Positions 1-19,376 of a DNA stretch of 64,000 bases are shown piece after piece. The notes below the pieces were generated by a model. It had not been told where the DNA came from, did not search any database, and worked only from the letters and a program-made list of their open reading frames with translations. The position numbers and the translations under genes are program-made. How positions within the stretch are numbered: the stretch's first letter is position 1; the number at the start of each line of letters is the position of its first letter. The DNA is taken from assembly GCA_026390075.1 (NCBI GenBank), contig JAPLGP010000036.1, positions 1 to 64,000 on the forward strand, given 5' to 3'. The DNA is from Campylobacterales bacterium (GTDB lineage Bacteria; Campylobacterota; Campylobacteria; Campylobacterales; Sulfurimonadaceae).

Positions 1-1
1 A

Positions 2-82
2 TCAGGAATCATCAATTCAGACATTTATAAGTTTGGAGCTAAATCTTCAAATAAAATAGTAGAAAAACAAGAGGTGGTTTAA
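2..82 (+). CDS. C-terminal end of an unidentified protein (partial)
   Basis: Frame 2 is open from the window edge to a TAA at 80-82 and encodes 26 residues ending in KQEVV. Composition resembles the neighbouring genes and the other forward frames stop early. Too little is present to name a family. If real, it is the last gene inside the putative element that ends near 1248. Confidence 0.4.
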   Translation, partial: SGIINSDIYKFGAKSSNKIVEKQEVV

Positions 83-337
83 GTTTCAGAATGTAACTTT
101 TTTTTAATTTACCTGCCCAATTTTAGAGTTCGTTTGACACCGACACAATGTCACACCCCTTGAGAGATGCCCCCAACTTTGGGAACATCTTTTTACAATG
201 CAGGGCGAAATATTCCGCTTAAGTATTTCAAATATGAAACCCTATTGTAAATATGTGAACCGCTACGAGAAACCCGTAACGCATAAGCCAAAATTAAAAC
301 TCTATTTTGTATCATGGTAAAAGAGAGATAGAAATCT

Positions 338-542
338 CTTTAAGGTTTAAAAACCATTTTCAAGAGAACTGTTATTATGTTAACCATGAAATCCCTATAA
401 ATAGGGCTTTAAGGTTTAAAATCAAAAATAATTTGCATTTTGTCCGAAACTTAAGCCACTTAAAAAATAGCAAACGCCTATAAATAGGGCTTTACTCATT
501 TTTATCGGCTTAAGAAATGGATTTTTGAGTGCTTTAAGGTTT
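338..542. repeat. Degenerate repeats: CTTTAAGGTTT and CCCTATAAATAGGG
   Basis: CTTTAAGGTTTAA occurs at 338-350 and 407-420, and a shortened copy at 532-542. The near-palindrome CCCTATAAATAGGG at 393-406 and its variant at 477-490 are each followed by the bases GCTTTA. A related AAAGCCCTATTTTGTGG lies at 1204-1220. These may be integrase arm sites, regulator sites or remnants of a decayed array. Confidence 0.45.
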
Positions 543-595
543 GAGAGAAAATATCACTTAAAATATTCATTTAGATGATATTGAACTAACAATGC

Positions 596-601
596 TATAA
601 T
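596..601 (+). promoter_or_regulatory. Predicted -10 box of the toxin-antitoxin operon
   Basis: TATAAT lies 30 bases before the antitoxin ATG and is followed by an AGGA ribosome site at 621-624. No -35 box at proper spacing is seen, which is usual for Campylobacterota sigma-70 promoters. Confidence 0.5.
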
Positions 602-631
602 TTTACAAAGTTTATATTCAAGGAATTTTTA

Positions 632-838
632 ATGCAAACTATACAATTTCAAGTTGAAGATAATTTGTACAATGAGATGATAAAAAAAGGTATAAATATG
701 CAAGATGAGTTAAAACTTGCATTTAATAAAATCTTGTATAAAAAAGAGTATCAAATTGCGGATGAGATAAATCAAGCAATCAATGAAGTGAAGCAAGGCA
801 AAACTCAACCTATACAAAAGTTATTTAGTGAACTTTGA
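632..838 (+). CDS. RelB-like antitoxin of a type II toxin-antitoxin pair
   Basis: This 68-residue acidic, mostly helical protein precedes and overlaps a RelE/ParE-type toxin gene. By family analogy the N-terminal part would bind operator DNA and the C-terminal helix (about residues 40-68, with the EINQAINEVKQGK segment) would wrap the toxin. An AGGA site sits 7 bases before the ATG. The assignment rests mainly on size, position and the 11-base overlap with the toxin gene. Expression is probably autoregulated through the promoter at 596, but no operator was recognised with certainty. Confidence 0.7.
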   Translation: MQTIQFQVEDNLYNEMIKKGINMQDELKLAFNKILYKKEYQIADEINQAINEVKQGKTQPIQKLFSEL

Positions 839-1148
839 AACATCTTCACTTTTTGATAAACAATCTAAACAACTATCAAAAAAGTTTAATCTCTTAAAAA
901 ATGATTTAGAAGATTTTATCAATCATTTTAGTGACTACCACGCAACCGCTACAAATATAAAAATCAACTTCTTTAAAGTCAGACTATCAAACAGTAATAA
1001 AAATAAGGGTAAAAGTGCGGGTTATAGAATTTACTATTATTTGAAAATAGATGATGCCGTGTACTTACTTACTATTTACGATAAATCACAAATAGAGAGC
1101 ATTAATGAAAATATGCTTATTGACTTGATAAAAGAATTTGATAAGTAG
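828..1148 (+). CDS. RelE/ParE-family toxin
   Basis: This 106-residue protein begins with GTG and overlaps the antitoxin by 11 bases, so it is translationally coupled. The middle of the protein has the family pattern KVRLSNSNKNKGKSAGYR, then a hydrophobic strand (YYYLKIDDAVYLLTIYDKSQ), as in the RelE-superfamily proteins with the K-x-R-x-A-x-xxxGKSGGxR signature. Such toxins usually cleave mRNA at the ribosome or inhibit gyrase; which applies here cannot be told. The gene looks intact. It is the last gene before the tmRNA-like fragment at 1217-1248, a typical place for a cargo addiction module. Confidence 0.8.
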   Translation: MNFETSSLFDKQSKQLSKKFNLLKNDLEDFINHFSDYHATATNIKINFFKVRLSNSNKNKGKSAGYRIYYYLKIDDAVYLLTIYDKSQIESINENMLIDLIKEFDK

Positions 1149-1216
1149 GTACAATCAAAAATTGTAAGGTATATTGTAAGGTATTCTTTTAGTAAAGCCT
1201 TTTAAAGCCCTATTTT

Positions 1217-1248
1217 GTGGAGGCTTAAATCCCCCCACAGCTCCACCA
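1217..1248 (+). other. Degenerate tmRNA (ssrA) 3'-end copy, candidate attachment site
   Basis: The bases ending in CCCCACAGCTCCACCA match the T-arm and acceptor end of Campylobacterota tmRNA; the Helicobacter pylori tmRNA, as I recall it, ends CCCCACAGCTCCACCA. The 5' side of the T-stem (GTGGAGG) and the loop (CTTAAAT) are imperfect, and no tmRNA body lies upstream. Many integrative elements recombine in the T-loop of ssrA and leave a 3'-end copy at the far side. I infer that the real ssrA and the rest of the element lie to the left of this window. Confidence 0.6.
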
Positions 1249-1266
1249 CTTCCACATGCCGAGACT

Positions 1267-3480
1267 TTAGATATCTCTTTCTATAACTCTTTTAAAAGTA
1301 TTGAAATAATTATCTTGTAAACTTTCCATACTCATCACTACATCATTGATTTTGATTTTATTGCCGCCAACAGTTCCTATATTTTCACATGCCAAACCAT
1401 CTAGCATCGCTTCAAAAGCTGCACAGTTTTCTGGTTTTACTTCGATGATAGCACGGCTCATGCTCTCTGAAAAGATATCTCTCTCATCCATTACAGTCAT
1501 ACTAACATCACAGCCAAGTCCGCTCACAGCCGACATTTTTGCCAAAGCTATTGCAACGCCACCACTACTTGCATCTTTTGCACATGCCAAGAGACCTTTT
1601 TTATTTGCTTCGATAACGAGTTCCCAAAGAGCAAGTTCATTGTCATAGTTGATTTCAGGTAAAACTCCTGCAACTGTGCCACAAATCTCTTTCATGTAAA
1701 GAGACCCACCGAACTCACTTTTGCCTTCACCCACTAAATAAAGAGTGTTTCCAGCATCTTGAAAACTTGACATCAAAACTTTGTTCGCATCATCATTCAC
1801 ACCCACAGTTGCGATTGAAGGAGTTGGGAAAACTGAAATACCGTTTGTTTCGTTATAAAGAGAAACATTTCCACCAATTACAGGCGTTGTAAGTGCAGAA
1901 CACGCCTCTTTGATACCTAAACATCCTTGTCCAAACTGCCACATAACTTCAGGATTTTCAGGGTTTCCGTAGTTGAGACAATCTGTTATAGCCAAAGGTC
2001 TCGCTCCACTCATAGCAACATTTCTACCACTCTCGATAACCGCCGCAGCAGCTCCACCTTTAGGGTCGATGTAGCAGTAACGCACATTACAATCAGCTGA
2101 CATTGCAAGTGCTTTGCCGTTTTCTTTGACACGGATAACAGAAGCGTCTAACATTCCGCCTTTTTTGATTGTGTTTGTTTGTACCATGGAGTCATACTGC
2201 GTGTAAATCCACGATTTATCCACCACTTCCATAGACTTTGTGAGTTTCTCAAATGCTTCTTGGTTAGATACTTTTGCAAAATCATTGATAGTTACATTTG
2301 CGATTGTGTCCAAATAGGCTGGACGACTCATCGGGCGGTTCAGCACAGGTGCTTCTTCACTTACAGGATTGACTGGAACTTCAGCACACTTTTCACCGTG
2401 CCAGAAGAGTTCCATATTGCCCGTTGCCGTTACTTCACCAATAACCGCCGCGTCCAAATCCCATTTTTCAAAAATCTTGATAATCTCCGCTTCACTTCCT
2501 TTTTTCGCACAAAGAAGCATTCGCTCTTGAGATTCACTCAGCATAAAGTCATACGGAGTCATGTTCTCTTCACGCGCTGGAACTTTATCTAGGTGCATAA
2601 TCATCCCAGAACCTGAACGCCCAGCCATCTCAAAAGATGAACTTGTAAGCCCTGCAGCACCCATATCTTGGATACCAACAACATGGTCTGTTTTGAAGAG
2701 TTCTAAACATGCTTCAAGTAAAAGTTTCTCAGTAAATGGGTCACCCACTTGCACAGTTGGGCGAAGAGATTTTGACTCCTCTGTGAAACTGTCCGAACTC
2801 ATAACCGCACCGCCGAGTCCATCACGACCTGTTTTTGCACCCACATAAATTACGGGATTGCCGATACCATCCGCACGACCATAAAAAATCTCATCTGATT
2901 TTGCGAGTCCTAAAGTAAGAGCATTGACTAAAATATTTCCGTTGTAACACTCATCGAAACTTGTCTCTCCGCCGATAGTTGGAACACCCATACAGTTTCC
3001 GTATCCGCCGATGCCTGAAACGACACCACGCACCAAAAATCTCTGATGTGCTGAAGTTTTATCATCATTTAAAACATTACCAAATCTTAGAGCGTTCAGG
3101 TTTGCAATAGGTCTTGCACCCATCGTAAAAACATCACGCATAATTCCGCCAACACCCGTTGCAGCCCCTTGATACGGTTCTATAAAACTTGGGTGGTTGT
3201 GTGATTCCATCTTAAAGACAGCCGCATATCCGCCGCCAATGTCAATAACACCAGCATTTTCCCCTGGACCTTGGATAACCCACGGAGCTTTTGTTGGAAA
3301 ACCGTTTAAATGCACTTTTGAAGATTTATAAGAGCAGTGTTCACTCCACATAGCTGAAAATATGCCTATTTCAACAAGGTTTGGCTCACGCCCTAAAATC
3401 TTTTTGATATGTGCATAATCGTCGCTTGAAAGCTTGTGGGAAGCAAGAACTTTTTCAATGTTTTCTAATGGTTGGCTCAC
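1267..3480 (-). CDS. purL: Phosphoribosylformylglycinamidine synthase subunit PurL
   Basis: This 737-residue cytoplasmic ATP-dependent enzyme makes formylglycinamidine ribotide in purine synthesis, with PurQ supplying ammonia and PurS bridging. The length matches the small PurL type. Visible signatures are the substrate loop [20 protein letters not shown] near residue 93, the two repeated AIRS-like halves, and GGNVSLYNE in the second half. Translation starts at GTG behind an AGGA-like site, and a -10 box lies at 3520-3525. PurQ and PurS are not adjacent. The protein carries two imperfect copies of the dispersed motif (1386, 1581). Confidence 0.97.
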
Positions 3481-3519
3481 GGAGGATTCCTAAAATTTGA
3501 TTTTTGGTTTTAAGCGGGG

Positions 3520-3525
3520 ATTATA
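3520..3525 (-). promoter_or_regulatory. Predicted -10 box for purL
   Basis: The minus strand reads TATAAT about 40 bases before the GTG start of purL. No -35 box is evident. Confidence 0.45.
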
Positions 3526-3576
3526 GCAAATTAGTAGTAAAAGAAATTTTAACTCGCTATTTTTACTTGGTTTCCG

Positions 3577-3686
3577 CCACTTTTTTAGCAATATAGAGAA
3601 GCCTGTCGATAACTATATCCAACTGTGGAAATCGTTTCCACATGCCGTGATGTTTTTCTTTTTTAGGTAGCTAAAAAAGAAAGTGG
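3577..3686. repeat. Inverted repeat in the purL upstream intergenic region
   Basis: The 385-base stretch 3481-3865 has no recognised gene. It contains an inverted pair, CCACTTTTTTAGC at 3577-3589 and GCTAAAAAAGAAAGTGG at 3670-3686. Inside it, at 3624-3642, is a second hairpin TGTGGAAA/TTTCCACA whose right arm runs into a copy of the dispersed motif at 3638-3646. It could be a small non-coding RNA, a decayed miniature element or a terminator. AT-rich DNA from 3700 to 3830 holds nothing else recognisable. Confidence 0.5.
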
Positions 3687-3827
3687 AGATTCACTCACAG
3701 AGGTGTAATTTTGTTAAAAATGAAAATAGATAAAAATTGTTACTATTTTTTATAAAATCACTTGAATTTCTACTTTTAAGAGGACATTTTTGTGTTCTAA
3801 TAATTATTAATATTAAGTAAAGTTCAC

Positions 3828-3833
3828 TATAAT
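3828..3833 (+). promoter_or_regulatory. Predicted -10 box for the 3866 gene
   Basis: TATAAT followed by GGG lies 33 bases before the ATG at 3866, with an AAAGGA ribosome site at 3851-3856. Confidence 0.5.
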
Positions 3834-3865
3834 GGGAATTAATAAATATTAAAGGACAAAACGAT

Positions 3866-4738
3866 ATGAATGATTTTATGAAGAACACAATAGTGGCATT
3901 GATTAGTATCGCACTCACTTTCTTTATACAGCAGTATTATTATTCAAAAACGAATGAAATTAAAAAATTGGATGTTCATCAGTCGTTCAATCCCAATTTT
4001 TTGTCAAAACCAAAATTTCCAAATTCCAATATTGAACTAAAGATTGATGGTATTGACAAATCTAGGCTTGGTCTTTTTGAAGTTTCATTGTTAAATTATT
4101 CAAATTCAACATACAATGATATCCCTATTCATATTAAAATAACGCCAGAAAATACTGACGAATTTAAAGTAGTGACGCATTATGCGACAGGAGAAGACAA
4201 TATTCTTGATCTAGTAAAAGAACTAAAGCCTGTATCGTTTGATGGGAAAACTTATCTTTTCTCGTATCAAGTATCCACATTGAATCGAACTGAAAAAGAA
4301 GATCTTGGATTCACATTAAGCATGCTCTTTGAAGGGAATAAACAACCTAAAATTGATGTTGTTGCGAAAGGAATTAATACACAAGCATTTGCTTGGGAAC
4401 ATAGTCCTGATCAACAAAACCTTATTACAAAAGCATTGGTTTTATTAGCAGTATTATTGCTCATACTCCTAATCTTAGTGGTTTTTGTAGTTGGTCCATT
4501 TATATCTTGGATTTCAAGACCGTTTGACAGAAAATCTGACAAAACATATGCGAGAAAAGTATACGAAACAATTACAGACGAAAACCTTCTACCTGATTAT
4601 GACGACAATAAAATGAAATTATTTGTCCAGCAGATGCTATTCAAACAAAGACTTAGAGACTGGAACAGCAAATCTAAAATCAGTAAATGGAGTTTAGGGA
4701 TGAGAGGTCCGCTAGAAGAAGATTTTTTAATTGAATAG
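3866..4738 (+). CDS. Two-segment inner-membrane protein of unknown function
   Basis: I do not recognise this 290-residue protein. It has an N-terminal membrane segment (about residues 7-26), a beta-rich presumably periplasmic domain (30-185), a strongly hydrophobic second segment (188-213, rich in Leu, Val and Ile) and a charged cytoplasmic tail of about 75 residues. The outside domain looks like an immunoglobulin-type fold by strand pattern only. It has its own promoter and stands alone between purL and a decayed toxin gene, which suggests accessory gene content. Confidence 0.6.
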   Translation: MNDFMKNTIVALISIALTFFIQQYYYSKTNEIKKLDVHQSFNPNFLSKPKFPNSNIELKIDGIDKSRLGLFEVSLLNYSNSTYNDIPIHIKITPENTDEFKVVTHYATGEDNILDLVKELKPVSFDGKTYLFSYQVSTLNRTEKEDLGFTLSMLFEGNKQPKIDVVAKGINTQAFAWEHSPDQQNLITKALVLLAVLLLILLILVVFVVGPFISWISRPFDRKSDKTYARKVYETITDENLLPDYDDNKMKLFVQQMLFKQRLRDWNSKSKISKWSLGMRGPLEEDFLIE

Positions 4739-4752
4739 GTTATAACAAATCA

Positions 4753-5046
4753 GTGGAGCCAATAAGGAAATATATTGCCAAGTACAATTTACATAGAAGC
4801 AACACAGTTAAAAAGAAAATAGATAAAAGGCTGTATTCAAAAATTGAAAATTTTGTTTACCCTCAACTTAGAGAAAACACTTTTTACGGAACTAATATTA
4901 AAAAACTAAAAGATAATCTTGAGGGCTATTATAGATATAGAATTGGAAACTATAGACTCTTTCATCTTATCAAAGATGACAACTCCATTTAATATAAGTG
5001 GTATTACAATCAATTTGAACCTTCATGATAGGAATAACTCCCATTA
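4753..5046 (+). pseudogene. Frameshifted RelE/ParE-type toxin remnant
   Basis: The first frame, from GTG at 4753 to TAA at 4990-4992, encodes the typical toxin core (ENTFYGTNIKKLKDNLEGYYRYRIGNYRLFHLI, residues 41-73 as read in two parts). It stops where the last two strands should begin. The next frame then reads ISGITINLHDRNN-like sequence up to TAG at 5044-5046, resembling the family ending with its HRxD motif. One indel near 4985 explains this. No antitoxin gene is visible beside it. Confidence 0.65.
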
Positions 5047-5062
5047 GTCAATATTTATTTAA

Positions 5063-6664
5063 CTACCCATTTTTCAACGCCTTATTGACAAGCAGATGCG
5101 ATATCTCAAAACTTGCATCCACAAATTTTAGTTCTGGTAAATCTCTCATGCTTTTTCTCTCCTCGACACTATCGATTTTTATGATGATATTTGCATTTTT
5201 GCAAAACCCGAGTATCGCTTCGCTGATGAGTCGTTTGAGGTGCTCACTGCTGATTGTTATGATGATGGCTTTTGCTTCATTGACCATCAGAGACTCTAAA
5301 ACGGGGAGTTTATTGAGGTGTCCGAAGTATGCCATGTAGCCTAATTTTCTTGCCAAAAGTACATGTTTAAGGTTGTCTGAGATGATGACAAAGTCCGCTC
5401 CCCTTGCCTTTAAATCTAGGGCGACTATCTTTCCAAGAGTAGAAAACCCTGCAATAATAATGTGATTTTGTTTCCCAATCGGGGTAATAACATCCGATTC
5501 ATAAAACTCTTTTTCAAAATAAGAGGAGAGTTTGTAGATGTTGTTTACGATAAAGGGAGTAAGTATCATCGACATGACACTCACAAGTATCAAAAAGTTA
5601 GCCACCTCTTGGCTTATGAGCCTTTGCGAAGCGGCAAGAGCAAAGATTGCAAAAGAAAATTCTCCGATTTGAGCAAGTGAAAGAGCCGTTTTTGCAGAGG
5701 TATTTTTGTCCGAATTGCGTCTGATGATGGCATAAATCACAAGTGCTTTAAAAAGCATCACAAGGATAAAAATGAAGATAATAATATGAATATGTGCCAA
5801 AAAGTAAATCAAATCTATCTTTGTCCCGACACCAAAGAAAAACACGCCAAGAAGTAAATCTTTGTAGCTTACGATGTCAGACTCCACTTTTACATTGTAC
5901 TTTGTATCGGCGATTATCATTCCCGCTATAAAAGCACCTAAAGAGTAAGTAAAACCCATCTCATGCGCTAAGAGTGAAGCCCCGATAACGATTGAAAAAA
6001 CAGACCCCAAAAATAGTTCTTCAAGCTCTGTTTTTGCAGAAAATTGAAGTAACGAATTTACGATTTTTTCTCCGATACTAAACATAAACAAAACAACTAA
6101 AATTGCTGAAACTACCGTTGTAAGGAGGACTTCGCCGAGAGACAGAGTGTTGTTAGATAAAAAAGTTATAAGCAATAAAATAGGAATGACCGCTAAATCC
6201 TGAAAGATAAGAATCCCCATAGATTTTTGTCCATAAGGCGTGTGAATATCTTTGGACTCTTTGAGGTATGTCAAAACTATCGCCGTGGAAGAGAGTGAAA
6301 AAGCCAAAGATATGATGATGGATGTATTGAAATCAAGCTTAAAAATATAAAATGATAATCCATAGATGACAATCACACTCAACACAACTTGCAACAAACC
6401 ATTTGTGAGCAAAATATCTTTCATCTTTTTGATTTTTTGCAGACTCAGTTCAAGCCCTATGCTAAACATCAAAAACACGATGCCAAACTCTCCGATAAGG
6501 TCGAGTGAGTCTATGTTTAGCCCATTAAATCCAAAAATGTAACTTATGATTGTTCCCGTTAAAATATAGCCTATGATGTGAGAAATTCCAAACTTTTTGA
6601 GAAGGATGTTCAGCACAGTTGCGATGGCGATGGTTAAAAAGATTGCGAGTAGTAAATTTTCCAT
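5063..6664 (-). CDS. Kef-type monovalent cation:proton antiporter with TrkA-N domain
   Basis: This 533-residue CPA2-family transporter probably exchanges K+ or Na+ for protons across the inner membrane. Residues 1-385 contain about 12 hydrophobic segments beginning with MENLLLAIFLTIAIATVLN. Residues 400-520 form a Rossmann RCK domain with the nucleotide motif GFSTLG, which gates Kef channels with NAD(H) or glutathione adducts in relatives. A -10 box on the minus strand at 6671-6676 lies directly before the ATG. It could be KefB/KefC-like or YbaL-like; the family is clear but the ion is not. Confidence 0.88.
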   Translation of the reverse strand: MENLLLAIFLTIAIATVLNILLKKFGISHIIGYILTGTIISYIFGFNGLNIDSLDLIGEFGIVFLMFSIGLELSLQKIKKMKDILLTNGLLQVVLSVIVIYGLSFYIFKLDFNTSIIISLAFSLSSTAIVLTYLKESKDIHTPYGQKSMGILIFQDLAVIPILLLITFLSNNTLSLGEVLLTTVVSAILVVLFMFSIGEKIVNSLLQFSAKTELEELFLGSVFSIVIGASLLAHEMGFTYSLGAFIAGMIIADTKYNVKVESDIVSYKDLLLGVFFFGVGTKIDLIYFLAHIHIIIFIFILVMLFKALVIYAIIRRNSDKNTSAKTALSLAQIGEFSFAIFALAASQRLISQEVANFLILVSVMSMILTPFIVNNIYKLSSYFEKEFYESDVITPIGKQNHIIIAGFSTLGKIVALDLKARGADFVIISDNLKHVLLARKLGYMAYFGHLNKLPVLESLMVNEAKAIIITISSEHLKRLISEAILGFCKNANIIIKIDSVEERKSMRDLPELKFVDASFEISHLLVNKALKNG

Positions 6665-6670
6665 GGACGC

Positions 6671-6676
6671 ATTATA
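6671..6676 (-). promoter_or_regulatory. Predicted -10 box for the Kef-type antiporter
   Basis: The minus strand reads TATAAT only 7 bases before the ATG at 6664, which would give a very short or absent leader. The real promoter may lie further upstream. Confidence 0.3.
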
Positions 6677-6741
6677 AGATATTTAAGTAAAGCTTTTAAA
6701 AGAGTTGCTGTATAAAATATAAACATGACTTTTCTCTCAAG

Positions 6742-7266
6742 TTAATGAAAAGAAAAATCAACTTTTGTTCGGATGTTTTTTTTGAGTGAGAAGATATTTT
6801 TGTACTCTATTTTTAGAATTTCATATTTTTTCTTGGCATGTGGAAGTTGTATGGTAAACTCATCCTCTTCCTCTTTTCCTATCAATGCCCTTGCGAGTGG
6901 CGAGTGAATCGAGATAAGTCCATTTTCTGGTTCAGATTCTAAGACTCCGCAAAGCGTGTAACTCTCCTCTTCATCCGTTTCAAGATTTACGATGGTAACA
7001 CTGCTTCCAAAACTCACTCTGGCATGTGGAAGTGTTGCTGGATCTATGATTTGAGATTTTTGTATCATGGAGTTAAGATAAAAAAGTCTTCTTTCTATAA
7101 AACGAAGTTTCTCTTTTGCGGCATGGTAGTCAGCATTTTCGCTTCTATCTCCACATGCCGCAGCGATTAGCTTTTCCTCAGCTACTTTAGGTTTTTCAAC
7201 TTCGAGTAAAAACTTAAACTCTTCAACCAAAACATCATAACCCTCCACGCTCATAGGCTCAATCAA
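6742..7266 (-). CDS. greB: Transcription elongation factor GreB/GreA family
   Basis: The 174-residue protein would enter the RNA polymerase secondary channel and stimulate cleavage of backtracked RNA. The N-terminal coiled coil carries the tip motif GDRSENADY at residues 39-47, with the two key acids D40 and E43, and is closer to GreB (GDRSEN) than to GreA (GDLKEN). The C-terminal FKBP-like domain follows from residue 80. It carries three exact copies of the dispersed motif, read as AACG, LPHAR and LPHAK, including one just before the tip. The tail of about 20 residues is basic and longer than usual. Confidence 0.88.
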   Translation of the reverse strand: MIEPMSVEGYDVLVEEFKFLLEVEKPKVAEEKLIAAACGDRSENADYHAAKEKLRFIERRLFYLNSMIQKSQIIDPATLPHARVSFGSSVTIVNLETDEEESYTLCGVLESEPENGLISIHSPLARALIGKEEEDEFTIQLPHAKKKYEILKIEYKNIFSLKKNIRTKVDFSFH

Positions 7267-7275
7267 AACAGAGCC

Positions 7276-7605
7276 TTAATGATGAAAACCGAGAATATAG
7301 TAAGTTTTTTTGTTATCTAACTGATTCACTGTTACTTTAAATTTATCACTGAAATGTCTAATTTTTGCATGTGCTTCTTCTTCGATTTCCTTACTCGGAG
7401 CTTCGATTTTTATTTTAAAATAATCATTTGTATTGGACATCGCCACATAAGAATTATCTACTTTTAATGCATCATGCAAATCCATAATATGCTTACTTAT
7501 CTTCTCATATCCTGTCGTATTGTTTTCAATTCTTTCAAGCTGACCTAACAAAGCACCATTTGGTAAATAGCCTAATTGCTTTAACATTGCATCTCTTTGC
7601 ATCAT
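7276..7605 (-). CDS. Conserved small soluble protein of unknown function
   Basis: This 109-residue protein starts MMQRDAMLKQLGYLPNGALL. The first half is helical and the second half (about 60-109) looks like an alpha-beta unit ending in a YYILGFHH strand. An AAAGGA site precedes the start, which may be at either ATG. It lies 9 bases upstream of greB on the same strand, so the two are probably cotranscribed. No family was recognised. Confidence 0.65.
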   Translation of the reverse strand: MMQRDAMLKQLGYLPNGALLGQLERIENNTTGYEKISKHIMDLHDALKVDNSYVAMSNTNDYFKIKIEAPSKEIEEEAHAKIRHFSDKFKVTVNQLDNKKTYYILGFHH

Positions 7606-7706
7606 AATTATGAATCCTTTTGCTCTTTATTTTTAATTTGTTCAAAAATAATAACAGTTTTTTGTAAATATTGAGAAATTTTCAGTATCAATTTATCTGT
7701 ATTAAC

Positions 7707-7712
7707 TATAAT
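7707..7712 (+). promoter_or_regulatory. Predicted -10 box of the HDOD-rnr-holA operon
   Basis: TATAAT lies 39 bases before the ATG at 7751. The three genes that follow are close or overlapping and read in the same direction. Confidence 0.45.
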
Positions 7713-7750
7713 TGTAACACTAACTAAAGATTTTAAAAGAGAGAAAAAAG

Positions 7751-8551
7751 ATGACTGAAGAAATACTAGCAAAGATAAAACAACTCCCACCTCTTCCAGA
7801 GTCTGCGATGCAGATTGAAGCTGTTTATCAAGATCCAAATAGTAGTTTTAACGATATGGTTAAGATATTGGAAAAAGATCCTCTTCTCACTGCAGATATT
7901 TTAAAAGCAGCAAACTCTCCACTTTATGGTTTTAGCCGTGAAATCAATGCAATCAGCCAAGCAGTTGGTCTTTTTGGAATGGGAACAGTAAGAGGTTTTG
8001 CCCTTGCATCTATCGTGAAAAAAAGTTTTTCACTTGACTTATCTGCTTATGGAATAAATAATGAAATGTTTTCTAATTTATCTAAAAAACAACATGGTCT
8101 TATGACTGCTTGGTGTATTAGAAAAGAGAACAAGCTTTTAGGCATTCTTTCTCCTGCTGCATTTCTTGTTGAGATTGGTAAAGTTATTATTGCGCAACAA
8201 GTTATGGCAGAGGGCAAACAAACTGAATTTCGTGACGCTCTGAAAAATCTTCAAAATGTTGAAGCTGCTGAGAGAGAAATTGTTGGTACAGATACTCCTG
8301 ATGTAAGTTCAACGATATTTGCACAGTGGAAATTTGAAAAAGGGCTTGTTGAAGTTATAAAACACTGTCAAAATCCTGAGAATGCCGAACCTGAGTACCA
8401 AAGAGCTGCAAGTATTTTACATGTTGTTCGTGTTTGTGTTCCTATAAATGGTGTTATCACAGACGAAAGTGCAGAAGCTGCAAAAGAACTTATCAAGAAA
8501 TATGACCTTGATATGGAAAGCTTTGAAAAAGCTTTAGAAAACGCTAAATAA
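7751..8551 (+). CDS. HDOD-domain signalling protein
   Basis: The 266-residue protein is a stand-alone HDOD domain (about residues 10-215): the LPPLPESAMQIEAVYQDPNSS start and the DPLLTADILKAANSPLYG segment are characteristic. HDOD proteins resemble HD phosphohydrolases but lack the metal residues and act as scaffolds in signalling, motility and stress. Some Campylobacter HDOD proteins affect flagellar regulation. It is first in an apparent operon with rnr and holA, with only 7 bases to rnr. Confidence 0.85.
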   Translation: MTEEILAKIKQLPPLPESAMQIEAVYQDPNSSFNDMVKILEKDPLLTADILKAANSPLYGFSREINAISQAVGLFGMGTVRGFALASIVKKSFSLDLSAYGINNEMFSNLSKKQHGLMTAWCIRKENKLLGILSPAAFLVEIGKVIIAQQVMAEGKQTEFRDALKNLQNVEAAEREIVGTDTPDVSSTIFAQWKFEKGLVEVIKHCQNPENAEPEYQRAASILHVVRVCVPINGVITDESAEAAKELIKKYDLDMESFEKALENAK

Positions 8552-8558
8552 TTTTCCC

Positions 8559-10499
8559 TTGAAATCCCTACTTATTAGGCTCACTCTTGGTTTGAGTGAG
8601 CAAGACATCAGCCCCCAAGAGCGAATTCATGTCAACAACTTTTTTGCAAAAAACTACCTCACTTACAAAGATAATGTTTATAAATTTAACTCAAAATACC
8701 GTGCAGGAACTTTAGGACTTGTTCAAAAAGGGACGGCGTATTTGAATGTAATTGGCGAAAATGTTCGTGATTTATTTATTGGCGAAGGCGATTTAGGAAT
8801 GGCTAAAGAGGGTGACCTTATCATTGCTCAAAGACTTTTAGGCAAGATGGGAACTCCAAGTGCAAAGATAGCAGAGATTGTCGGTCGCGCTGTGAATTAC
8901 AGTGTTGCTTACATCATTCAAAATGGAAGTCATCGCTCTTTGGTTGATTTAAAAACCGACTTTCCTATTGGTGCAGAGATGAGTGAGAGTGAATTAAACG
9001 CCTATGAAATCGGCGATGTTTTTAAAATCGATAATCAAGAAAATGCCGTTATGGAAAAACTTGGCAATATTAATGACCCACTTGTAGATGAAAAAATTGT
9101 TTTAGCACAATTTAACAAACACGATGCATTTGAGAGTGAAGTTTTAGAAATTGCAACCTCTTTTAAAGAAGTAGATGCTTCAAAATATCCAAACAGAAAA
9201 GATTTAAGAGATTTGCCATTTTGTACCATCGACCCTGTTACTGCAAAAGATTTTGATGATGCAATCTACTGGGATGATGAAAACACAACGCTCTATGTCG
9301 CTATCGCCGATGTCAGCGAATATGTAACACCATTTGGTCCTATAGACAATGAAGCGATATATAGATGTTTTTCCATCTATCTTCCGCATCGCTCTATTCC
9401 TATGCTTCCACGACAACTCAGTGAAACACTCTGTTCACTCCAACCGCATGTAGATAGACTTGCTTATGTTTTTGAAATGAAACTTGATTTGACTACTTTA
9501 GAAGTGAGCAAATCTAAAGTGTATGAAGCGATTATTCACTCCTCAAGAAGATTTAATTACGAAGAGATTGATGAGTTTTTTGAAGGCAATTTAAAAGCTA
9601 AAAATGATGAAGAGGTAAAAGTATTTGAGTACATTACAAAGCTTCGTCCAATCACGGATGCACTCAAAGCAAAAAGATTAAAAGTCGGCTATGATTTTCG
9701 CTCCAATGAGTTGGAGATGTTCATAGATGAAAAATCAAATCTCACACACACAACTTATGCCGAGGAAACTCCCTCTCATGCGCTTATCGAAGATTGTATG
9801 CTTTTAGCCAATAAAGAGGCTGCAAAACAATTTGATAGAGGTATATTTAGAATTCATGAACCACCGAGTCAAACAAAACTTCAAGTTCTCTACCAAGAGT
9901 TGGCTGGAATCGGTATGTTTATTGACATAAAACACTCCATCAAAGAGACTATTACAGATATTCAAAGACAAGCAAGAGAGATGGGTCTTGAATCAGAGGT
10001 GGATACGCTTATCATTCGTTCACAGATGCAAGCAAGATACGCACCGCTCAATTCTGGACACTTTGGATTAGGGTTTGAACAATACACACACTTTACTTCG
10101 CCCATTCGCAGATACTCAGATTTAATTGTGCATAGACTTTTAAAAGCTATTGCAAACAATGACACCATAGAAGGCTCGTATGTTCTGAGAAATATAGAAG
10201 CACTCAGTATGACCATAAGCGAAAAAGAGAGAGAAGCAAGTACCATAGAAACAGAGTTTATGGCTCGAAAGTTTGCAAGATGGGCGGCTGGACATATAGG
10301 CGAGAGTTTCAAAGCGCGCATAAATGCGACCGAACCAGATGTTAAAGCAGAACTTCATGATGAAATTATTGGGGCAAGACTCAATATTATCTCGCATGAA
10401 AATATCGTTTTGTTTGAAGATATTTATGCAAAAATAGAGAGCGTGGATATCGCTAAAGCAAAAATCTTTGCAAGTGCAATCAAAAGAGATGATGAGTAA
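8559..10499 (+). CDS. rnr: Ribonuclease R (RNB family 3'-5' exoribonuclease)
   Basis: This 646-residue enzyme degrades structured RNA from the 3' end. The RNB catalytic motif DPVTAKDFDDAIYWD, with the clustered metal-binding aspartates, is near residues 224-238, and the HFGLGFEQYTHFTSPIRRYSDL motif is near residue 500. It is shorter than the E. coli enzyme, as usual in this phylum, with a reduced N-terminal OB region. The chosen start is TTG at 8559. No strong ribosome site precedes it, so coupling to the HDOD gene is likely. Its TAA overlaps the holA ATG. Confidence 0.93.
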   Translation: MKSLLIRLTLGLSEQDISPQERIHVNNFFAKNYLTYKDNVYKFNSKYRAGTLGLVQKGTAYLNVIGENVRDLFIGEGDLGMAKEGDLIIAQRLLGKMGTPSAKIAEIVGRAVNYSVAYIIQNGSHRSLVDLKTDFPIGAEMSESELNAYEIGDVFKIDNQENAVMEKLGNINDPLVDEKIVLAQFNKHDAFESEVLEIATSFKEVDASKYPNRKDLRDLPFCTIDPVTAKDFDDAIYWDDENTTLYVAIADVSEYVTPFGPIDNEAIYRCFSIYLPHRSIPMLPRQLSETLCSLQPHVDRLAYVFEMKLDLTTLEVSKSKVYEAIIHSSRRFNYEEIDEFFEGNLKAKNDEEVKVFEYITKLRPITDALKAKRLKVGYDFRSNELEMFIDEKSNLTHTTYAEETPSHALIEDCMLLANKEAAKQFDRGIFRIHEPPSQTKLQVLYQELAGIGMFIDIKHSIKETITDIQRQAREMGLESEVDTLIIRSQMQARYAPLNSGHFGLGFEQYTHFTSPIRRYSDLIVHRLLKAIANNDTIEGSYVLRNIEALSMTISEKEREASTIETEFMARKFARWAAGHIGESFKARINATEPDVKAELHDEIIGARLNIISHENIVLFEDIYAKIESVDIAKAKIFASAIKRDDE

Positions 10500-11458
10500 T
10501 GTACAAAAGTGAGTTAGACAAACATATACAGAACAAAAGTCTCTCCAACAGTTTTGTATTTTTTGGAGAGAGTAGCTTTTTTATAGATGTCTATACTAAA
10601 ACAGTTACAGATATAGAAGATGCTTCAATCCTCTCTTTTTACCACGATGAGTATGACTTTAACTCCGCAAAAGCACACTTGTCGCAAGGTTCTCTTTTTG
10701 GAGACAGAAATGTTCTCATTCTCAAAAGTGAAAAAAAAGTACCTAAAAAAGATATTGATTTTTTCATAGAACTCTGCGAAAAAAATCCTGATAATATTTT
10801 TGTTTATGCCTATTATGGAGCTGACCATAAAGATTATGCAAAAGCATTTGCCAAAAAAAGCACAATGGATGTGCGGTTTTTTCATCCAAAAGATTTTGAA
10901 GCGCAAAGTATCGTATCGCAAATCGCAAAAGAAAAACAAGTGAGCATCGACAACTACTCCATCATCCACCTTTTACAAATTCACAACGGAGATGTTGCCC
11001 TCGCTTGTAATGAGATAGAAAAATTTACTATCCTTGGCAGAGCCATAACAACCAAAGATATAGATAATCTTGTTTTTGGACTCGCTGAAATAAACCTCGA
11101 TGATTTTATAAAAAAAATTTTAAACAAAAAAGATTTTAAAGAAGACCTAAATAACATACTAGAACACGGAGAAGATGAGATACGCGTCATCACCGCTATA
11201 ACATCCTACATAACACAACTCTACATGTTCAACATCTACATACGAGTCAAAGGCGCACCAAATGCTCTTGAGATTTTAGGATACCCTGCTCCCCCTCAAA
11301 TAGTAGAACAAAAAGCCGCACTATCGCTCAAGTTTAAACCAAATATTTATGCAAAGCTTCATGAACTTTTGCTTAGTAGTGAGTTAAAAATGAAAAGCTC
11401 AAATGTTGATAAAAGTGCTATTGTGGAAAGGTATCACAAAGAAACTAAGGATTTTTAA
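10499..11458 (+). CDS. holA: DNA polymerase III subunit delta (HolA)
   Basis: The 319-residue clamp-loader subunit opens the beta clamp. The divergent HolA fold is recognisable from the N-terminal FVFFGESSFFIDVYTK segment, in place of a Walker A motif, from FDSAK-like DEYDFNSAKAHLSQGSLFGDRNVLIL near 50-75, and from the domain III segment NDVALACNEIEKF-like at about 165. The ATG overlaps the rnr stop by one base (TAATG), indicating translational coupling. The partner holB lies in this window at 39725. Confidence 0.88.
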   Translation: MYKSELDKHIQNKSLSNSFVFFGESSFFIDVYTKTVTDIEDASILSFYHDEYDFNSAKAHLSQGSLFGDRNVLILKSEKKVPKKDIDFFIELCEKNPDNIFVYAYYGADHKDYAKAFAKKSTMDVRFFHPKDFEAQSIVSQIAKEKQVSIDNYSIIHLLQIHNGDVALACNEIEKFTILGRAITTKDIDNLVFGLAEINLDDFIKKILNKKDFKEDLNNILEHGEDEIRVITAITSYITQLYMFNIYIRVKGAPNALEILGYPAPPQIVEQKAALSLKFKPNIYAKLHELLLSSELKMKSSNVDKSAIVERYHKETKDF

Positions 11459-11495
11459 TTTATAGTATTTAGATTTGGATGTTTGTGGGAGGGAG

Positions 11496-11540
11496 CTTAC
11501 TTTTGTAAGTGACCGAGCACATCATCCGAAGATGAGTGCT
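11496..11540. terminator. Hairpin pair between convergent holA and ilvC
   Basis: Two stems lie in the 96-base convergent gap: CTTAC-TTTT-GTAAG at 11496-11509 and AGCACATCATC-CGAA-GATGAGTGCT at 11516-11540. Neither has a strong U-tract, but the position suits a bidirectional terminator. The GAGCTTAC...GTAAGTGACCGAGC wording may belong to a dispersed repeat family. Confidence 0.45.
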
Positions 11541-11554
11541 AGAAATTGAAAAGA

Positions 11555-12593
<1,039 letters not shown>

Positions 12594-12617
12594 TCAAAGG
12601 CTCAAAAAATTTGTGGC

Positions 12618-12623
12618 ATTATA
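12618..12623 (-). promoter_or_regulatory. Predicted -10 box for ilvC
   Basis: The minus strand reads TATAAT about 50 bases before the ilvC ATG at 12569. The leader between them carries the AAGGA site. Confidence 0.45.
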
Positions 12624-12641
12624 CTCAATTAAACTATAAAA

Positions 12642-14306
12642 TTAGCTGTAGTTTGCAAGTCTTGAGATGATTTTATCAGCCACTCTAAAAGCATTCGCGT
12701 AGATAGTCCATGTGTAGGGCACACTTCCACCTGTTGGCATAAAACTGCCATCTGTTACATAAAGATTTTCCAAAGCATGAGCTTTACAGTTTGAATCTAA
12801 AACAGATGTTTTTTCATCCTCTCCAAAACGACATCCACCAGCGACTAAGTTTGGTGGTGGTGCAGAGGAAACAGAGTAGAAAATCTCTTTAGCACCCATC
12901 TCTTTTAAAACTTCACTCGCCTTTTTCGCCAACTTTTCACCCACTTCTAAATCATGCGGATGTCCCCATAAATGTATCACACCCACTGGCATGTGGAACT
13001 TATCTTTTACCTCATCATCCACACTCACATAACAGTACTCCGTAGGAAGCCAGTCATTAAAAACTTCAAAAGTAAGCACCCGTGCAGTTGTTATATTTTT
13101 ATGGATTTTTTCTTGAAGTTCTCTGCCCCAAATAAGCTTGTTCTCATCATTGTAAAACTCTTTTGAAACCCGAGGTATAATATTTGCATGTTCAAATAAA
13201 AAATCAATCGTACCGCCTTTTATTTTTTTGCCATTCTCTTCATACTCATACCAATCCTGCAAACTTCGATTGAAAAACAAACCTGCTTGCATAAGCTCTT
13301 TTTGCTGATTTTCATCCAGACCCTCATATCTGAATCTGCCCTGCCCAACTCCACCCGCTGAGAAGAGTAAATTTTTTCCCACTTGTCCATAATTGTTAGC
13401 AAGACCACGAGGAAAGTATCTATTTTTAGAATTCAAAAGAAGTCGTGAAGTTTCAATCGCCTGTGCTGCAACTACAAATATTTTCGCTTCTATTGTCTGT
13501 GGATTAAACTCTTTATCGTAATAATGTGCCTTAGTAATCCTGCTCGCATCACTTTCGAGTTTATAAACAAAAGCTTCTGTGATGATTTTTGCATCACATT
13601 TTTGAAGAAGTGCCGCTCTTGCACTCCCTTTTGCTCCAGTTGCACAGCCATAACTCCCACAAAAGTTTGAGTAAGAACAGCCATTTCTCTGAAGTGCGGC
13701 ATGTGGAAGTATGGCGCGCGGTGTTTGTAGGCTAGAAAATCCTAGATTTCCACATGCCCCATCAAACCACTTTGTTACTCTGTTTTCTTCAAGAGCGGCA
13801 TGTGGAAAGTTTGGTGTTGAGCGAGGTTCTGCGTATTTATGTTTTGTTACATTTCCAGAAATTCCAACTACCTTTTCAACCTTTGTGTAGTAGGGTTCTA
13901 AATCCTCATAACTTATAGGCCAGTCAACAACATTCGCACCCTCTATTTTTCCATAAACACTCTTTAGACGAAAATCATTTGGCTTCATTCTGTGAAAAAA
14001 TCCGCTCATAAGATTGGATGAACCGCCCACCATTGAGCCGTTCCAAAAACTCCAGTTGACTTCACTTCCCACATGCCGAGTGTATGAGCCATCCGCATTT
14101 CGTTCATTTATAACATGCTGTTCCTCTTTAAGAAGTGGCGTAAACATATCTCTGCGAGAGACTGCGAGTTCATCTTTTGTAAAATCTTCCTCTTTATAGT
14201 TTTTCCCTTTTTCCAAAACTACCACTTTGTATCCAGCACGAGAGAGTTCATAGGCTATGGGTGCGCCACCTGCGCCACTTCCGATTATGCAGATATCGTA
14301 CATCAT
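12642..14306 (-). CDS. GMC-family FAD dehydrogenase, catalytic subunit
   Basis: The 554-residue flavoprotein starts MMYDICIIGSGAGGAPIAYELSRAGYK, a classic FAD-binding Rossmann start, and ends with the GMC C-terminal motif region (VTDGSFMPTGGSVPYTWTIYANAFRVADKI). A longer open frame exists, but the ATG overlapping the upstream stop (ATGA) is the likely start. Together with the Tat-borne small subunit upstream it resembles gluconate 2-dehydrogenase or sugar and alcohol dehydrogenases that pass electrons to cytochromes. Substrate is unknown. A Cys-rich stretch (CSYSNFCGSYGCATG) lies near residue 218. Five exact copies of the dispersed motif fall in this one gene. Confidence 0.85.
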   Translation of the reverse strand: MMYDICIIGSGAGGAPIAYELSRAGYKVVVLEKGKNYKEEDFTKDELAVSRRDMFTPLLKEEQHVINERNADGSYTRHVGSEVNWSFWNGSMVGGSSNLMSGFFHRMKPNDFRLKSVYGKIEGANVVDWPISYEDLEPYYTKVEKVVGISGNVTKHKYAEPRSTPNFPHAALEENRVTKWFDGACGNLGFSSLQTPRAILPHAALQRNGCSYSNFCGSYGCATGAKGSARAALLQKCDAKIITEAFVYKLESDASRITKAHYYDKEFNPQTIEAKIFVVAAQAIETSRLLLNSKNRYFPRGLANNYGQVGKNLLFSAGGVGQGRFRYEGLDENQQKELMQAGLFFNRSLQDWYEYEENGKKIKGGTIDFLFEHANIIPRVSKEFYNDENKLIWGRELQEKIHKNITTARVLTFEVFNDWLPTEYCYVSVDDEVKDKFHMPVGVIHLWGHPHDLEVGEKLAKKASEVLKEMGAKEIFYSVSSAPPPNLVAGGCRFGEDEKTSVLDSNCKAHALENLYVTDGSFMPTGGSVPYTWTIYANAFRVADKIISRLANYS

Positions 14307-14794
14307 AAAAATGCCTTTGTTGGACGAGGAATTCCTGCTGTGTGATGAAGCCACTTCCAGCCAGATTCATTTTTATTTATCCCATAAATAGGGTCGCCGA
14401 GCATTGCTTCCATAGTGTAGGTAAGAAGTGTGTAAAGCCATCGCTCTCCCCATTTTTCATTGGAAACAGTATGGAGTATATTTTGTCGATTTACGGGAGA
14501 GAGTTGTGTGTATAATTTTTTATATTGAAGTATCGCTTCTTCGTTAAGCCACTGCACACCGTTTCGGATAAAAGCTTTATCTCTATCACTCACACGACTG
14601 TGATTTAAAATCAAAGAGATATAAGCAGATGCGTTGCTACTTAACTCCTTGGCATGTGGAAATAAATCTTCTTGAACAACTACTAAAGTTTCAAGCGGAG
14701 TTATCGCACCAAAAAGTTTATCTCCTGCCATCACTAAAACAGCAGTCGATAAAAAGCTTTGTTTTAAAAAAGTTCTGCGGGAGTTTTTAAACAT
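14303..14794 (-). CDS. Tat-signal small subunit, gluconate 2-dehydrogenase subunit 3 family
   Basis: This 163-residue protein begins MFKNSRRTFLKQSFLSTAVLVMAG, a twin-arginine signal peptide, so it is exported folded, probably carrying the catalytic flavoprotein with it as a hitch-hiker. The body matches the general pattern of gluconate 2-dehydrogenase subunit 3 proteins, including the WGERWLYTLLTYTMEAMLGDPIYG segment at about 115-140. Its stop overlaps the start of the GMC gene, so both subunits are made together. TatB and TatC are encoded at 49496-50681. No dedicated third cytochrome subunit is adjacent. Confidence 0.8.
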   Translation of the reverse strand: MFKNSRRTFLKQSFLSTAVLVMAGDKLFGAITPLETLVVVQEDLFPHAKELSSNASAYISLILNHSRVSDRDKAFIRNGVQWLNEEAILQYKKLYTQLSPVNRQNILHTVSNEKWGERWLYTLLTYTMEAMLGDPIYGINKNESGWKWLHHTAGIPRPTKAFL

Positions 14795-14810
14795 AAATTA
14801 TATTTCATCT

Positions 14811-16802
14811 TTATACAATTTTAACCATATTTTTACCATGTTCTTTTGAATAATAGAGTCCATCATCAGCTCTTTCAAGTGCGCTTGTTGCTGTGTCTTC
14901 TTTTAAAATTTGTGTTACACCAAAACTACAAGTCAACTGTCCAAAATGCTCAAAACTATAGTGTGACAATACTTCACGCAAAGAGTTTGCAAGAGTCTCT
15001 GCCTCTTTAATTGGAGTCAATGGAAGTAAAATGACAAACTCTTCTCCACCCCAACGCGCAAAAATATCTGTCGGGCGTATGCGTGCAGAAAATATATTTG
15101 AAAGAGTAACGAGCGCATAATCACCAACAATATGCCCATATATATCATTAATTTTTTTAAAATTATCAATATCACAAATAATTAAAGAGTAACTTTCGCT
15201 ATAACGCTTGACCGTATAAAGTGCTTTTTCTAACTCTTTATTGAATTTCAAACGGTTATATTGCCCTGTGAGTGGATCTCTTATCACTTGATTTTTCAAG
15301 CGGTTATTTTCATTACTCAACCTTGTAACATCATTAAAAATCATAACTTCTTTATCTTTTTGGCTATTTATAGAGATAAAATCTATTTCAAAAACTTTAT
15401 ATTCGCCATCTTGTGAATATAAAGAGATAATTTGATTGCCATTTGTAAAGAGTGAAACAATAAATTCTTTTATTGAATTTAATTTACTACAAGATGCTAA
15501 ATCAACTTTAAAAAGTACACATAAATCTTTTACACTCAAAATTGTAGTAATATCATTTATGCAAAAAAACTCTAAAAAAGCTCTGTTTGCATAAACAACA
15601 CTATCATCTTCAATAGTCAAAATCATACTATTGTGACGGTCTAATATATATTCTAAAGATTGTTTTTGTTCACTCAGTTCTTGTGTACGATTTTGCACTT
15701 TGCTTTCTAAAGAGTTTGCATAGTCCACTATTGTTTTACGCTGTGTTTGTAAAGAATCTGTCATAGCATTAAAATTTTGAGATAAAAGTCCAAATTCATC
15801 ATTTGTATCTAACGCTAATCGTTGTTCATACTCCCCATTTTTAATCTTTTGAGTCTGAGAAATCATAACATTAAAAATATTACGAATTTTTTTAGCAAAG
15901 ATAAAAATGATGATTATAGAAAATAACAATACTAAGCATGTAGCAATTACAATAGAATTTTTAAGCTTATCTTCATACTTTTGTATCTCCGCAGACGGAT
16001 ATGCCATCATCAAAGAAGCTGTAGATGCACGATCCATATTTTTTAAAGGTCGTGCAGTCAAATAATAATCTTCACTCCCTATCTTTGTTTCATAAAACTT
16101 ATCAACATATTTTAAAAGCCAAAGATAATCCATATATGGCATAGGCAAACTCTTCATTAAAACTCCATCAATTTTAAATGAAGTAGCAGCAACAGCTCTA
16201 TCACCAACAATTGTAAATTCCATAGGAGTATCTTTTTTGATATTTTGCATCATCACATTGTTCATACTAAACCCCATAAGCAACATACCTTTTTGCTTAT
16301 TATCAATCATAACTGGTGCAGATGCATACAAAACAAAAATATCAAACTGTCTTACTATGCTTGTAAAGTGTTTATTTTCACTTAAAGTTTCTTCAACAAT
16401 TTGTAAATTTTGTAGTGAGCTACCCTCAAATGGGACAGATCCAGACTGTGTTATAACATTTGCACTCTTATCCAATAAAATTATTTGATCACACCCAAAA
16501 TCAAGTCGTTTATCTTCTATGAGAACGCTTAACTTTTTTATATCATTCGCGAGTATATACTCAATAAACTCATGATCTTTGGCAAAAGTATTGATGAGTG
16601 TTTTATCCATCTGTCTGAGCATCTCAAAATGATTTTCAGCCATATTGAGAGCTTGATTAAACTGCTGATTTATCATGGAATCAACCGTTTGTTTACTCTG
16701 CGTCTGTATATAGTAACCACTTCCCAAAAACATCACTAATAAAACAGCCATAAAAAATAGAGAAATTTTTAATGCAATAGGAAAGAAAAAATTTCTTCTC
16801 AT
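14811..16802 (-). CDS. Membrane diguanylate cyclase with periplasmic sensor, HAMP, PAS-like and GGDEF domains
   Basis: The 663-residue protein has a membrane segment at about 10-30, a periplasmic sensor resembling a double Cache domain (35-285), a second membrane segment (about 288-308), HAMP (310-360), a coiled coil, a PAS-like region (390-500) and a C-terminal GGDEF domain. The active-site loop is WGGEEF, so it should make c-di-GMP, and the RxxD-type inhibitory site was not evident. Its ATG overlaps the stop of the multiheme cytochrome gene, suggesting the cyclase senses something tied to that respiratory protein. Confidence 0.9.
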   Translation of the reverse strand: MRRNFFFPIALKISLFFMAVLLVMFLGSGYYIQTQSKQTVDSMINQQFNQALNMAENHFEMLRQMDKTLINTFAKDHEFIEYILANDIKKLSVLIEDKRLDFGCDQIILLDKSANVITQSGSVPFEGSSLQNLQIVEETLSENKHFTSIVRQFDIFVLYASAPVMIDNKQKGMLLMGFSMNNVMMQNIKKDTPMEFTIVGDRAVAATSFKIDGVLMKSLPMPYMDYLWLLKYVDKFYETKIGSEDYYLTARPLKNMDRASTASLMMAYPSAEIQKYEDKLKNSIVIATCLVLLFSIIIIFIFAKKIRNIFNVMISQTQKIKNGEYEQRLALDTNDEFGLLSQNFNAMTDSLQTQRKTIVDYANSLESKVQNRTQELSEQKQSLEYILDRHNSMILTIEDDSVVYANRAFLEFFCINDITTILSVKDLCVLFKVDLASCSKLNSIKEFIVSLFTNGNQIISLYSQDGEYKVFEIDFISINSQKDKEVMIFNDVTRLSNENNRLKNQVIRDPLTGQYNRLKFNKELEKALYTVKRYSESYSLIICDIDNFKKINDIYGHIVGDYALVTLSNIFSARIRPTDIFARWGGEEFVILLPLTPIKEAETLANSLREVLSHYSFEHFGQLTCSFGVTQILKEDTATSALERADDGLYYSKEHGKNMVKIV

Positions 16803-18187
16803 TATTTTTGAGTACTTTCTTTAAGAACTTGACCTATTGGTTTTACTTGATAATTTGGATAACTTTTTTTAAAAATACTCTCCATTGCATCATACGATTT
16901 ATCCGCATGGCATCCATTATTTTGACAAGAGTTCGGCATTTTATATTTTATCGATGCAGAAGGTGGAATAATCTGAAAAGCATGACTTCTAATTGTAAAA
17001 TCTCCACCTGTTTCAACTATTTTTGGCATGTGGCAATCAGCACAAGTAACCTTATCTACAGGGCAGGGAAAATGTATTACTGGTTTTTCACTGCTATGTA
17101 TAGTTATGGCATTAATATTTGCATGACACTCACCACATTTATAAGCACCAACATTTCCTTTGATATTTTTATCGATGCCGTGTGGTTCATGACAAGTAAC
17201 ACATGTAATTCCATATTCAGCCGTTTTTAGTGTCGGTTTTTGACCCTCTTTTGCTGAACGATAATCTTGAGAATGGCATTTGAGACAATCATCATTCTTT
17301 TTTCCGCCATGTGGGTTTTCCTTTTGTCTTAAATCATCTAAAGATTTTGAATGCTTAGAAAAAGAAAAATCTGCGAACTCTTGATGACGATTTTTAGAAG
17401 TACCATTCCCCCACCAGTTTTGACCTTTTTTATCGTTCATTAAAGCTGATTGAACAAAAGTATCTTTAATATCTTCTCCAGGTTTATACTCGAGGGGAAA
17501 ATTAAATAGAGTTGTTTCTCCGTGCACATTTTTACTAACACTTTCTCCACGGCTATGGCACTGTCCACAAACAGTAGCTTTAGTAGAGACAACGATATCC
17601 GCTTCACCTACATGTGGCTTTTTATGACAAACTGCACACTCAGTATTTGCAACCATTTTTTGATGTTTTACATGCAAACTTCCTGCACCGTGACACGCTT
17701 CACACGAGACACTAAACTCTTTAAATTCGTATGTTTTTGCATCATACCCTGTTGTATGACACCCATTACACTTTGTTGATGCTGGTTCTTCTTTCCAATC
17801 ATAAACCTTATACGGAACCCACTTTTGAGTTGTTACCATCCATTTTGCCGTAAATGGATAATACTCTCCATCAATAATTCGCATATACACCTGTTCCCAT
17901 TTAGAACCAACTATATATGTTATTTCCTCTTTTTTGAAAGTTACTAAAGAATTATTTTGATCAAAATCTCCTAAGATTTGAGAAGCAGATGTGACTGGAA
18001 GAAAAATCTTTGGATGAAGGGTATTGTTTTTCCAGCTATCATACTGAACTTGATGGCAAGATTGACAATTTTCAGAACCAATATATGTTGGCATTTTTTT
18101 CAAATCAGAATGTACAAAAGCATATCTGTAAATTAAGATAAAAACCAATAGTACTATGGAAGCAATGATTAAAAGACGCTTGTTAAT
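16802..18187 (-). CDS. Membrane-anchored multiheme cytochrome c (nine CXXCH plus one CX4CH)
   Basis: The protein has nine CXXCH motifs (CQSCH, CNGCH, CEACH, CAVCH, CGQCH, CLKCH, CVTCH, CGECH, CADCH) and a tenth of the rare form CQNNGCH near the C-terminus. From TTG at 18148 the protein would begin inside its hydrophobic anchor. The frame continues upstream to an ATT at 18187 placed 6 bases after AAGGA, giving MNKRLLIIASIVLLVFILIYRY, a full signal anchor, so I chose that start. No ATG, GTG or TTG occurs in frame between 18148 and the stop near 18308. Likely role: periplasmic electron transfer. The family resembles tetraheme/octaheme cytochromes broadly; no specific substrate can be given. Confidence 0.85.
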   Translation of the reverse strand: MNKRLLIIASIVLLVFILIYRYAFVHSDLKKMPTYIGSENCQSCHQVQYDSWKNNTLHPKIFLPVTSASQILGDFDQNNSLVTFKKEEITYIVGSKWEQVYMRIIDGEYYPFTAKWMVTTQKWVPYKVYDWKEEPASTKCNGCHTTGYDAKTYEFKEFSVSCEACHGAGSLHVKHQKMVANTECAVCHKKPHVGEADIVVSTKATVCGQCHSRGESVSKNVHGETTLFNFPLEYKPGEDIKDTFVQSALMNDKKGQNWWGNGTSKNRHQEFADFSFSKHSKSLDDLRQKENPHGGKKNDDCLKCHSQDYRSAKEGQKPTLKTAEYGITCVTCHEPHGIDKNIKGNVGAYKCGECHANINAITIHSSEKPVIHFPCPVDKVTCADCHMPKIVETGGDFTIRSHAFQIIPPSASIKYKMPNSCQNNGCHADKSYDAMESIFKKSYPNYQVKPIGQVLKESTQK

Positions 18188-18361
18188 GCTATGTCCTTGA
18201 AGTTTAATACTTTTAAAAGAGTCAATGAGATGTTCGAATAAAAATAAATGATTTAGTAGGAGAATTTTATTTAAAAAAGATAAAAACCTCCTATTGCACT
18301 CAACTTATACTAAAAGTTTTATTATTGCCTTGTGTAATATGGTTGAAATCACAGCGCAAGA

Positions 18362-19374: not shown

Positions 19375-19376
19375 AA

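Follow-up and report, generated by a model that had tools for sequence, protein, structure and literature searches.

How does the end of a tmRNA gene come to lie directly beside purL? The stretch of DNA analysed here (64,000 nt, positions 1-64000 of contig C36 in a 2.4-Mb genome of 61 contigs; hereafter the window) carries near its left end a few bases that resemble the 3' terminus of ssrA, and a preliminary description had read them as the attR site left by an element integrated at that gene. By comparing the site with the genome's own ssrA and with the ssrA loci of relatives, we arrive at the same reading and give a probability of about 0.93 that positions 1235-1248 are the attR of a genomic island integrated at the ssrA 3' end. 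The site fixes where a mobile element of this genome ends on its right, and the features on either side of that boundary are collected in Table 1.

Table 1. Features around the putative attR at the left end of the window; G078 is the closest relative found
Feature	Positions	Strand	Remarks
Insertion-sequence right end	1-139		Multi-copy; terminal TGTCAAACGAACT in reverse orientation; cut by contig start
Putative right-hand end of the element	140-1234		Toxin-antitoxin pair homologous to the pair just inside the G078 attR
Antitoxin gene, 68 aa	632-838	+	71% identity with the G078 antitoxin ORF located at the island's right end
RelE-like toxin gene, 106 aa	828-1148	+	36% identical to the G078 toxin
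28-bp element-end repeat, CAAAAATTGTAAGGTATATTGTAAGGTA	1156-1183	+	Two genome copies at up to 3 mismatches
Putative attR core, CCACAGCTCCACCA	1235-1248	+	Copy of the ssrA 3' end; exactly two genome copies
Chromosomal flank, attR to purL	1249-1266		One copy of the GGCATGTGGAA repeat, TTCCACATGCC, at 1250-1260
purL, phosphoribosylformylglycinamidine synthase	1267-3480	-	Chromosomal side; 97.6% amino acid identity to G078 purL
Segment inverted relative to G078, about 18 kb	1249-19375		Judged by gene order on G078 contig C8

A second copy of the ssrA 3' end

The sole full tmRNA gene of the genome lies on contig C61 (1337-1711, minus strand; tag ANNTNYRPAYAVA) and terminates in the same 14 bases, CCACAGCTCCACCA, as the window site, so that the proposed comparison with the genomic ssrA bears out the core of the match. 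Within the 2.4 Mb this 14-mer occurs twice, at the ssrA 3' terminus and in the window, so that the distal border bears an exact 14-bp direct repeat of the gene's end. The match had originally been extended leftwards by AAATCCCC, implying 22 bases, and this part does not stand. A search located AAATCCCCCCACAGCTCCACCA at positions 1227-1248, and none of 100 shuffles matched by chance with up to three mismatches allowed, but the ssrA 3' end reads GGAGTTCGATTCTCCACAGCTCCACCA and the corresponding letters of the window are GTGGAGGCTTAAATCCCCCCACAGCTCCACCA. The AAATCC bases to the left of the core belong to the element and not to the ssrA repeat, because the G078 island shares CTTAAATCC at its right end; further to the left, G078 likewise diverges from ssrA. 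As the preliminary description had supposed, a tmRNA body is absent upstream of the match: no tRNA or tmRNA gene was found across the 64,000-nt window.

An integrase gene, which the preliminary description had proposed to look for, was found at ssrA itself. On C61, a tyrosine integrase gene of the P4 type starts 218 bp 3' of ssrA and encodes the Pfam domains Arm-DNA-bind_3, Phage_int_M and Phage_integrase, the last of which, the catalytic domain, ends at profile position 117 of 172, where an insertion-sequence end, lying at the contig border, cuts the protein off after ...PMSDNTLLG. The two ends share a further sequence: the second copy of CAAAAATTGTAAGGTATATTGTAAGGTA lies at C61:1202-1229, beside the start of the integrase gene, no others turn up in the genome even when three mismatches are tolerated, and each copy has the core on one side and the nearest gene on the other. 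Its function is probably that of an arm-type binding site for the integrase. The toxin-antitoxin pair and short repeats noted to the left of the site are present as described; the window antitoxin matches the RelN antitoxin weakly (E = 0.011), and the toxin scores below the Pfam RelE cut-off, which its G078 counterpart clears (43.4 versus 27 bits).

An intact version of the whole arrangement is provided by G078, with a purL DNA identity of 93% to the window; the nearest named purL relatives of the window gene belong to Sulfurimonas. The G078 island is complete on one contig, measures 7,219 bp from core to core and is ordered as ssrA, integrase, an HTH/excisionase-like protein, a Rha-like regulator, a terminase small subunit, an antitoxin-toxin pair and the second core. 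Its integrase, 418 aa long and located at ssrA, is 70.7% identical to that of C61 over 311 aa, and its antitoxin-toxin pair, homologous to that of the window, adjoins attR. Complete islands with other cargo are not limited to G078: one of 5.3 kb is present in G037, and in G012 two core copies are separated by 4.8 kb, again with other cargo and consistent with a tandem arrangement. In G031 and G048, ssrA ends in GCACAGCTCCACCA and attR has the same variant; the repeat is therefore tied to the host gene. Across 13 genomes, CCACAGCTCCACCA is found only at ssrA ends and in second copies, the latter being island edges where examined in detail. An integrase of this type starts 111-218 bp past the CCA in 13 of the 49 ssrA loci of the genus (searched within 1.5 kb), a sporadic distribution among relatives in a sample biased to high-scoring and closely related genomes. 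The tmRNA gene is thus a recurrent island site in Sulfurimonas.

An attR formed by integration at ssrA accords with the core, the integrase near ssrA, the 28-bp end repeats and the G078 island alike. In such an event, a P4-type tyrosine integrase would have recombined the attP of the element site-specifically with the ssrA terminus, the crossover presumably falling within the 14 bp. The copy on C61 (attL) would have restored a complete tmRNA gene, and a second copy of the 3' end would have remained on the distal side of the element as the attR of the window, making the first 1.23 kb of the window the right end of the element, with its RelE-like toxin-antitoxin pair.

Insertion sequences, the purL flank and alternative origins

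The element is interrupted on both sides of the assembly gap. The same sequence as window positions 1-139 opens C29 and recurs at ends of C59 and C6, and an imperfect terminal repeat links this insertion-sequence end to the insertion-sequence left end on C61 and to at least 13 other contig ends. The left border of C36 and the border of C61 are opposite ends of one kind of insertion sequence. The two contigs could not be paired through a target duplication, as the flanking bases are mismatched (GGG on C61, CCG on C36), and more than one insertion-sequence copy, or an insertion-sequence-mediated deletion, should therefore lie between them. As ssrA and attR are on separate contigs that each end inside an insertion sequence, their linkage in this genome is inferred rather than read from the assembly. 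Decay by insertion of insertion sequences and deletion would be the likeliest history of the element. With its integrase truncated within the catalytic domain by the insertion sequence, the island has probably lost its mobility, unless a different integrase acts on it.

No sequence elsewhere in the genome was recognised as the C-terminal remainder of the C61 integrase, and the partial integrases at the contig ends of C6, C29 and C59 do not resemble the missing P4-type half. At four contig ends (C6, C29, C59 and C61), insertion sequences with TGTCAAACGAACT ends lie against truncated integrase genes, as if they often sat in the integrases of islands. On C29 (1-977, locus L025), the same insertion-sequence end precedes a fragment of an integrase C-terminus that stops 25 bp short of the RNase P RNA 3' end (RF00010, 654-977, minus strand) and may represent another decayed island, one at rnpB. 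C29 had also been considered as the right flank, as it has the epimerase found beyond the G078 attR; it starts with the insertion-sequence end and the integrase remnant beside the RNase P RNA, and a search for the core on this contig found no copy.

On the other side of the core, purL lies where the preliminary description had placed it and does mark the chromosomal side of the junction, but it is no guide to what originally flanked ssrA on the right, because the segment that bears it is inverted relative to G078. The window reads attR, purL, kefB, greA, ..., ilvC, ..., gene 18661 and then ruvX, whereas G078 has, beyond attR, two genes, gene 18661, ilvC, ..., greA, kefB, purL and then ruvX, with breakpoints at the attR/purL junction and between gene 18661 and ruvX. 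The inverted segments of the two genomes differ by several genes, and we do not infer the ancestral order from either. The expectation that purL would adjoin ssrA in relatives lacking the element failed: no direct adjacency was seen where both genes were placed. Such adjacency was accordingly discarded as the form of an empty site, the neighbours on the purL side varying widely and the order in G078 reflecting the inversion. Between purL and kefB, the window (3866-4992) encodes a 290-aa protein with no Pfam match and a ParE-type toxin, and G078 has an apparently unrelated 295-aa gene at the same place.

The separation of purL from ssrA in the relatives examined, together with the fact that C61 and C36 are not joined, could mean that the element beside purL integrated separately at a secondary site and is not the partner of the ssrA junction. 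We regard this as quite unlikely, given that the genome has one attL-type and one attR-type core and a single pair of 28-bp end repeats, and that G078 carries purL on the attR contig, about 11 kb beyond attR, in a segment that is simply inverted. Marginally less improbable is an attR that stems from a second, tandem island at ssrA, the truncated integrase then coming from another island of the array. In G012, ssrA is followed by two core copies, as tandem islands would leave them, and the assembly has a gap between C61 and C36, yet the 28-bp repeat is identical at both element ends and the assembly holds no third core copy.

An exact match of just 14 bp might also be thought to be a chance similarity, or a decayed tRNA or tmRNA fragment with no mobile element involved. 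This has next to nothing to recommend it once the shuffles, which gave zero chance matches, are set beside the 13 genomes in which the 14-mer marks only ssrA ends and second copies (island edges where examined), and beside the concordance of integrase, end repeats and G078 island. Integration at ssrA, with the window carrying the distal copy, is the reading that we retain.

An uptake-sequence-like repeat next to the core

The chromosomal bases that touch the attR core are one copy of an abundant repeat (TTCCACATGCC). In the window, GGCATGTGG has 45 copies on both strands, against 0.15 expected from dinucleotides, at sites that include 1252, 3638, 13698 and 60742/60762; ten of the 45 are intergenic, the intergenic share of the sequence being about 10%. 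The repeat consensus is TTGGCATGTGGAA, followed by A/T-rich positions. Genome-wide, the 10-bp GGCATGTGGA reaches 1,302 copies (663 and 639 per strand), and its reversed control 1. The element end in the window (140-1234) contains no GGCATGTGG, and the G078 island has one copy in 7.2 kb versus 20 in 26.8 kb of its flank.

The distribution of GGCATGTGGA is clade-limited and covers only part of the genus. It exceeds 100 copies in 14 of 135 genus genomes, most of which have about 0-10, with 1,298 in G078 and about 720-890 in G056, G072, G077, G088 and G098, and it stays at or below about 10 in every genome sampled outside the genus but within the order. The obvious reading is a candidate DNA uptake sequence, which the repeat resembles. 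In Neisseria, paired uptake sequences form hairpins at terminators; in G078 and G098, purL is followed by a strong hairpin made of two inverted copies of the repeat. To our knowledge, such uptake sequences occur solely in Neisseriaceae and Pasteurellaceae. Our literature search found no report of a DNA uptake sequence in the phylum Campylobacterota and no paper linking uptake sequences with Sulfurimonas, the single one on Epsilonproteobacteria being a general review. The repeat is separate from the ssrA island, and it is more surprising than the phage-satellite reading of that island considered below.

Comparison with known elements at ssrA

The gene content of the relatives' islands suggests that the small ssrA islands of G031 and G078 may be phage satellites. 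The part of the G031 island that was scanned encodes a terminase small subunit and DNA methylases (locus L160). No capsid gene was recognised among the scanned ORFs of the G078 island, one of which matches a tail tape-measure protein weakly (E = 0.0008). It is possible, though we hold this only tentatively and as the less likely case, that the ssrA islands of the genus are satellites packaged by helper phages of Sulfurimonas and that the copy in the window is a decayed member; the features that enter such a reading are the integrase, the terminase small subunit, the Rha-type and excisionase-like regulators and the toxin-antitoxin pair. The point of comparison with phage satellites and PICI-type islands is the terminase small subunit carried by the G078 and G031 islands; the window holds a right end only.

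The mechanism of integration is well known, and the arrangement described here shows no departure from that of elements with P4-type integrases at ssrA. Elements of the CP4-57 and CP4So type in E. coli and Shewanella likewise have a P4-type integrase gene at the ssrA 3' end, a direct repeat of that end at the far border and toxin-antitoxin cargo (PMC5148205). CP4So spans 36 kb and has a 26-nt repeat (PMC5148205), whereas the Sulfurimonas islands are about 5-11 kb long with repeats of 14-19 bp, and the copy of the window has a broken integrase. In Dehalococcoides, too, ssrA is a genus-wide hot spot that receives many different small islands (PMC3146451), although those have an integration module of their own and carry reductive-dehalogenase cargo, of a kind not seen here.
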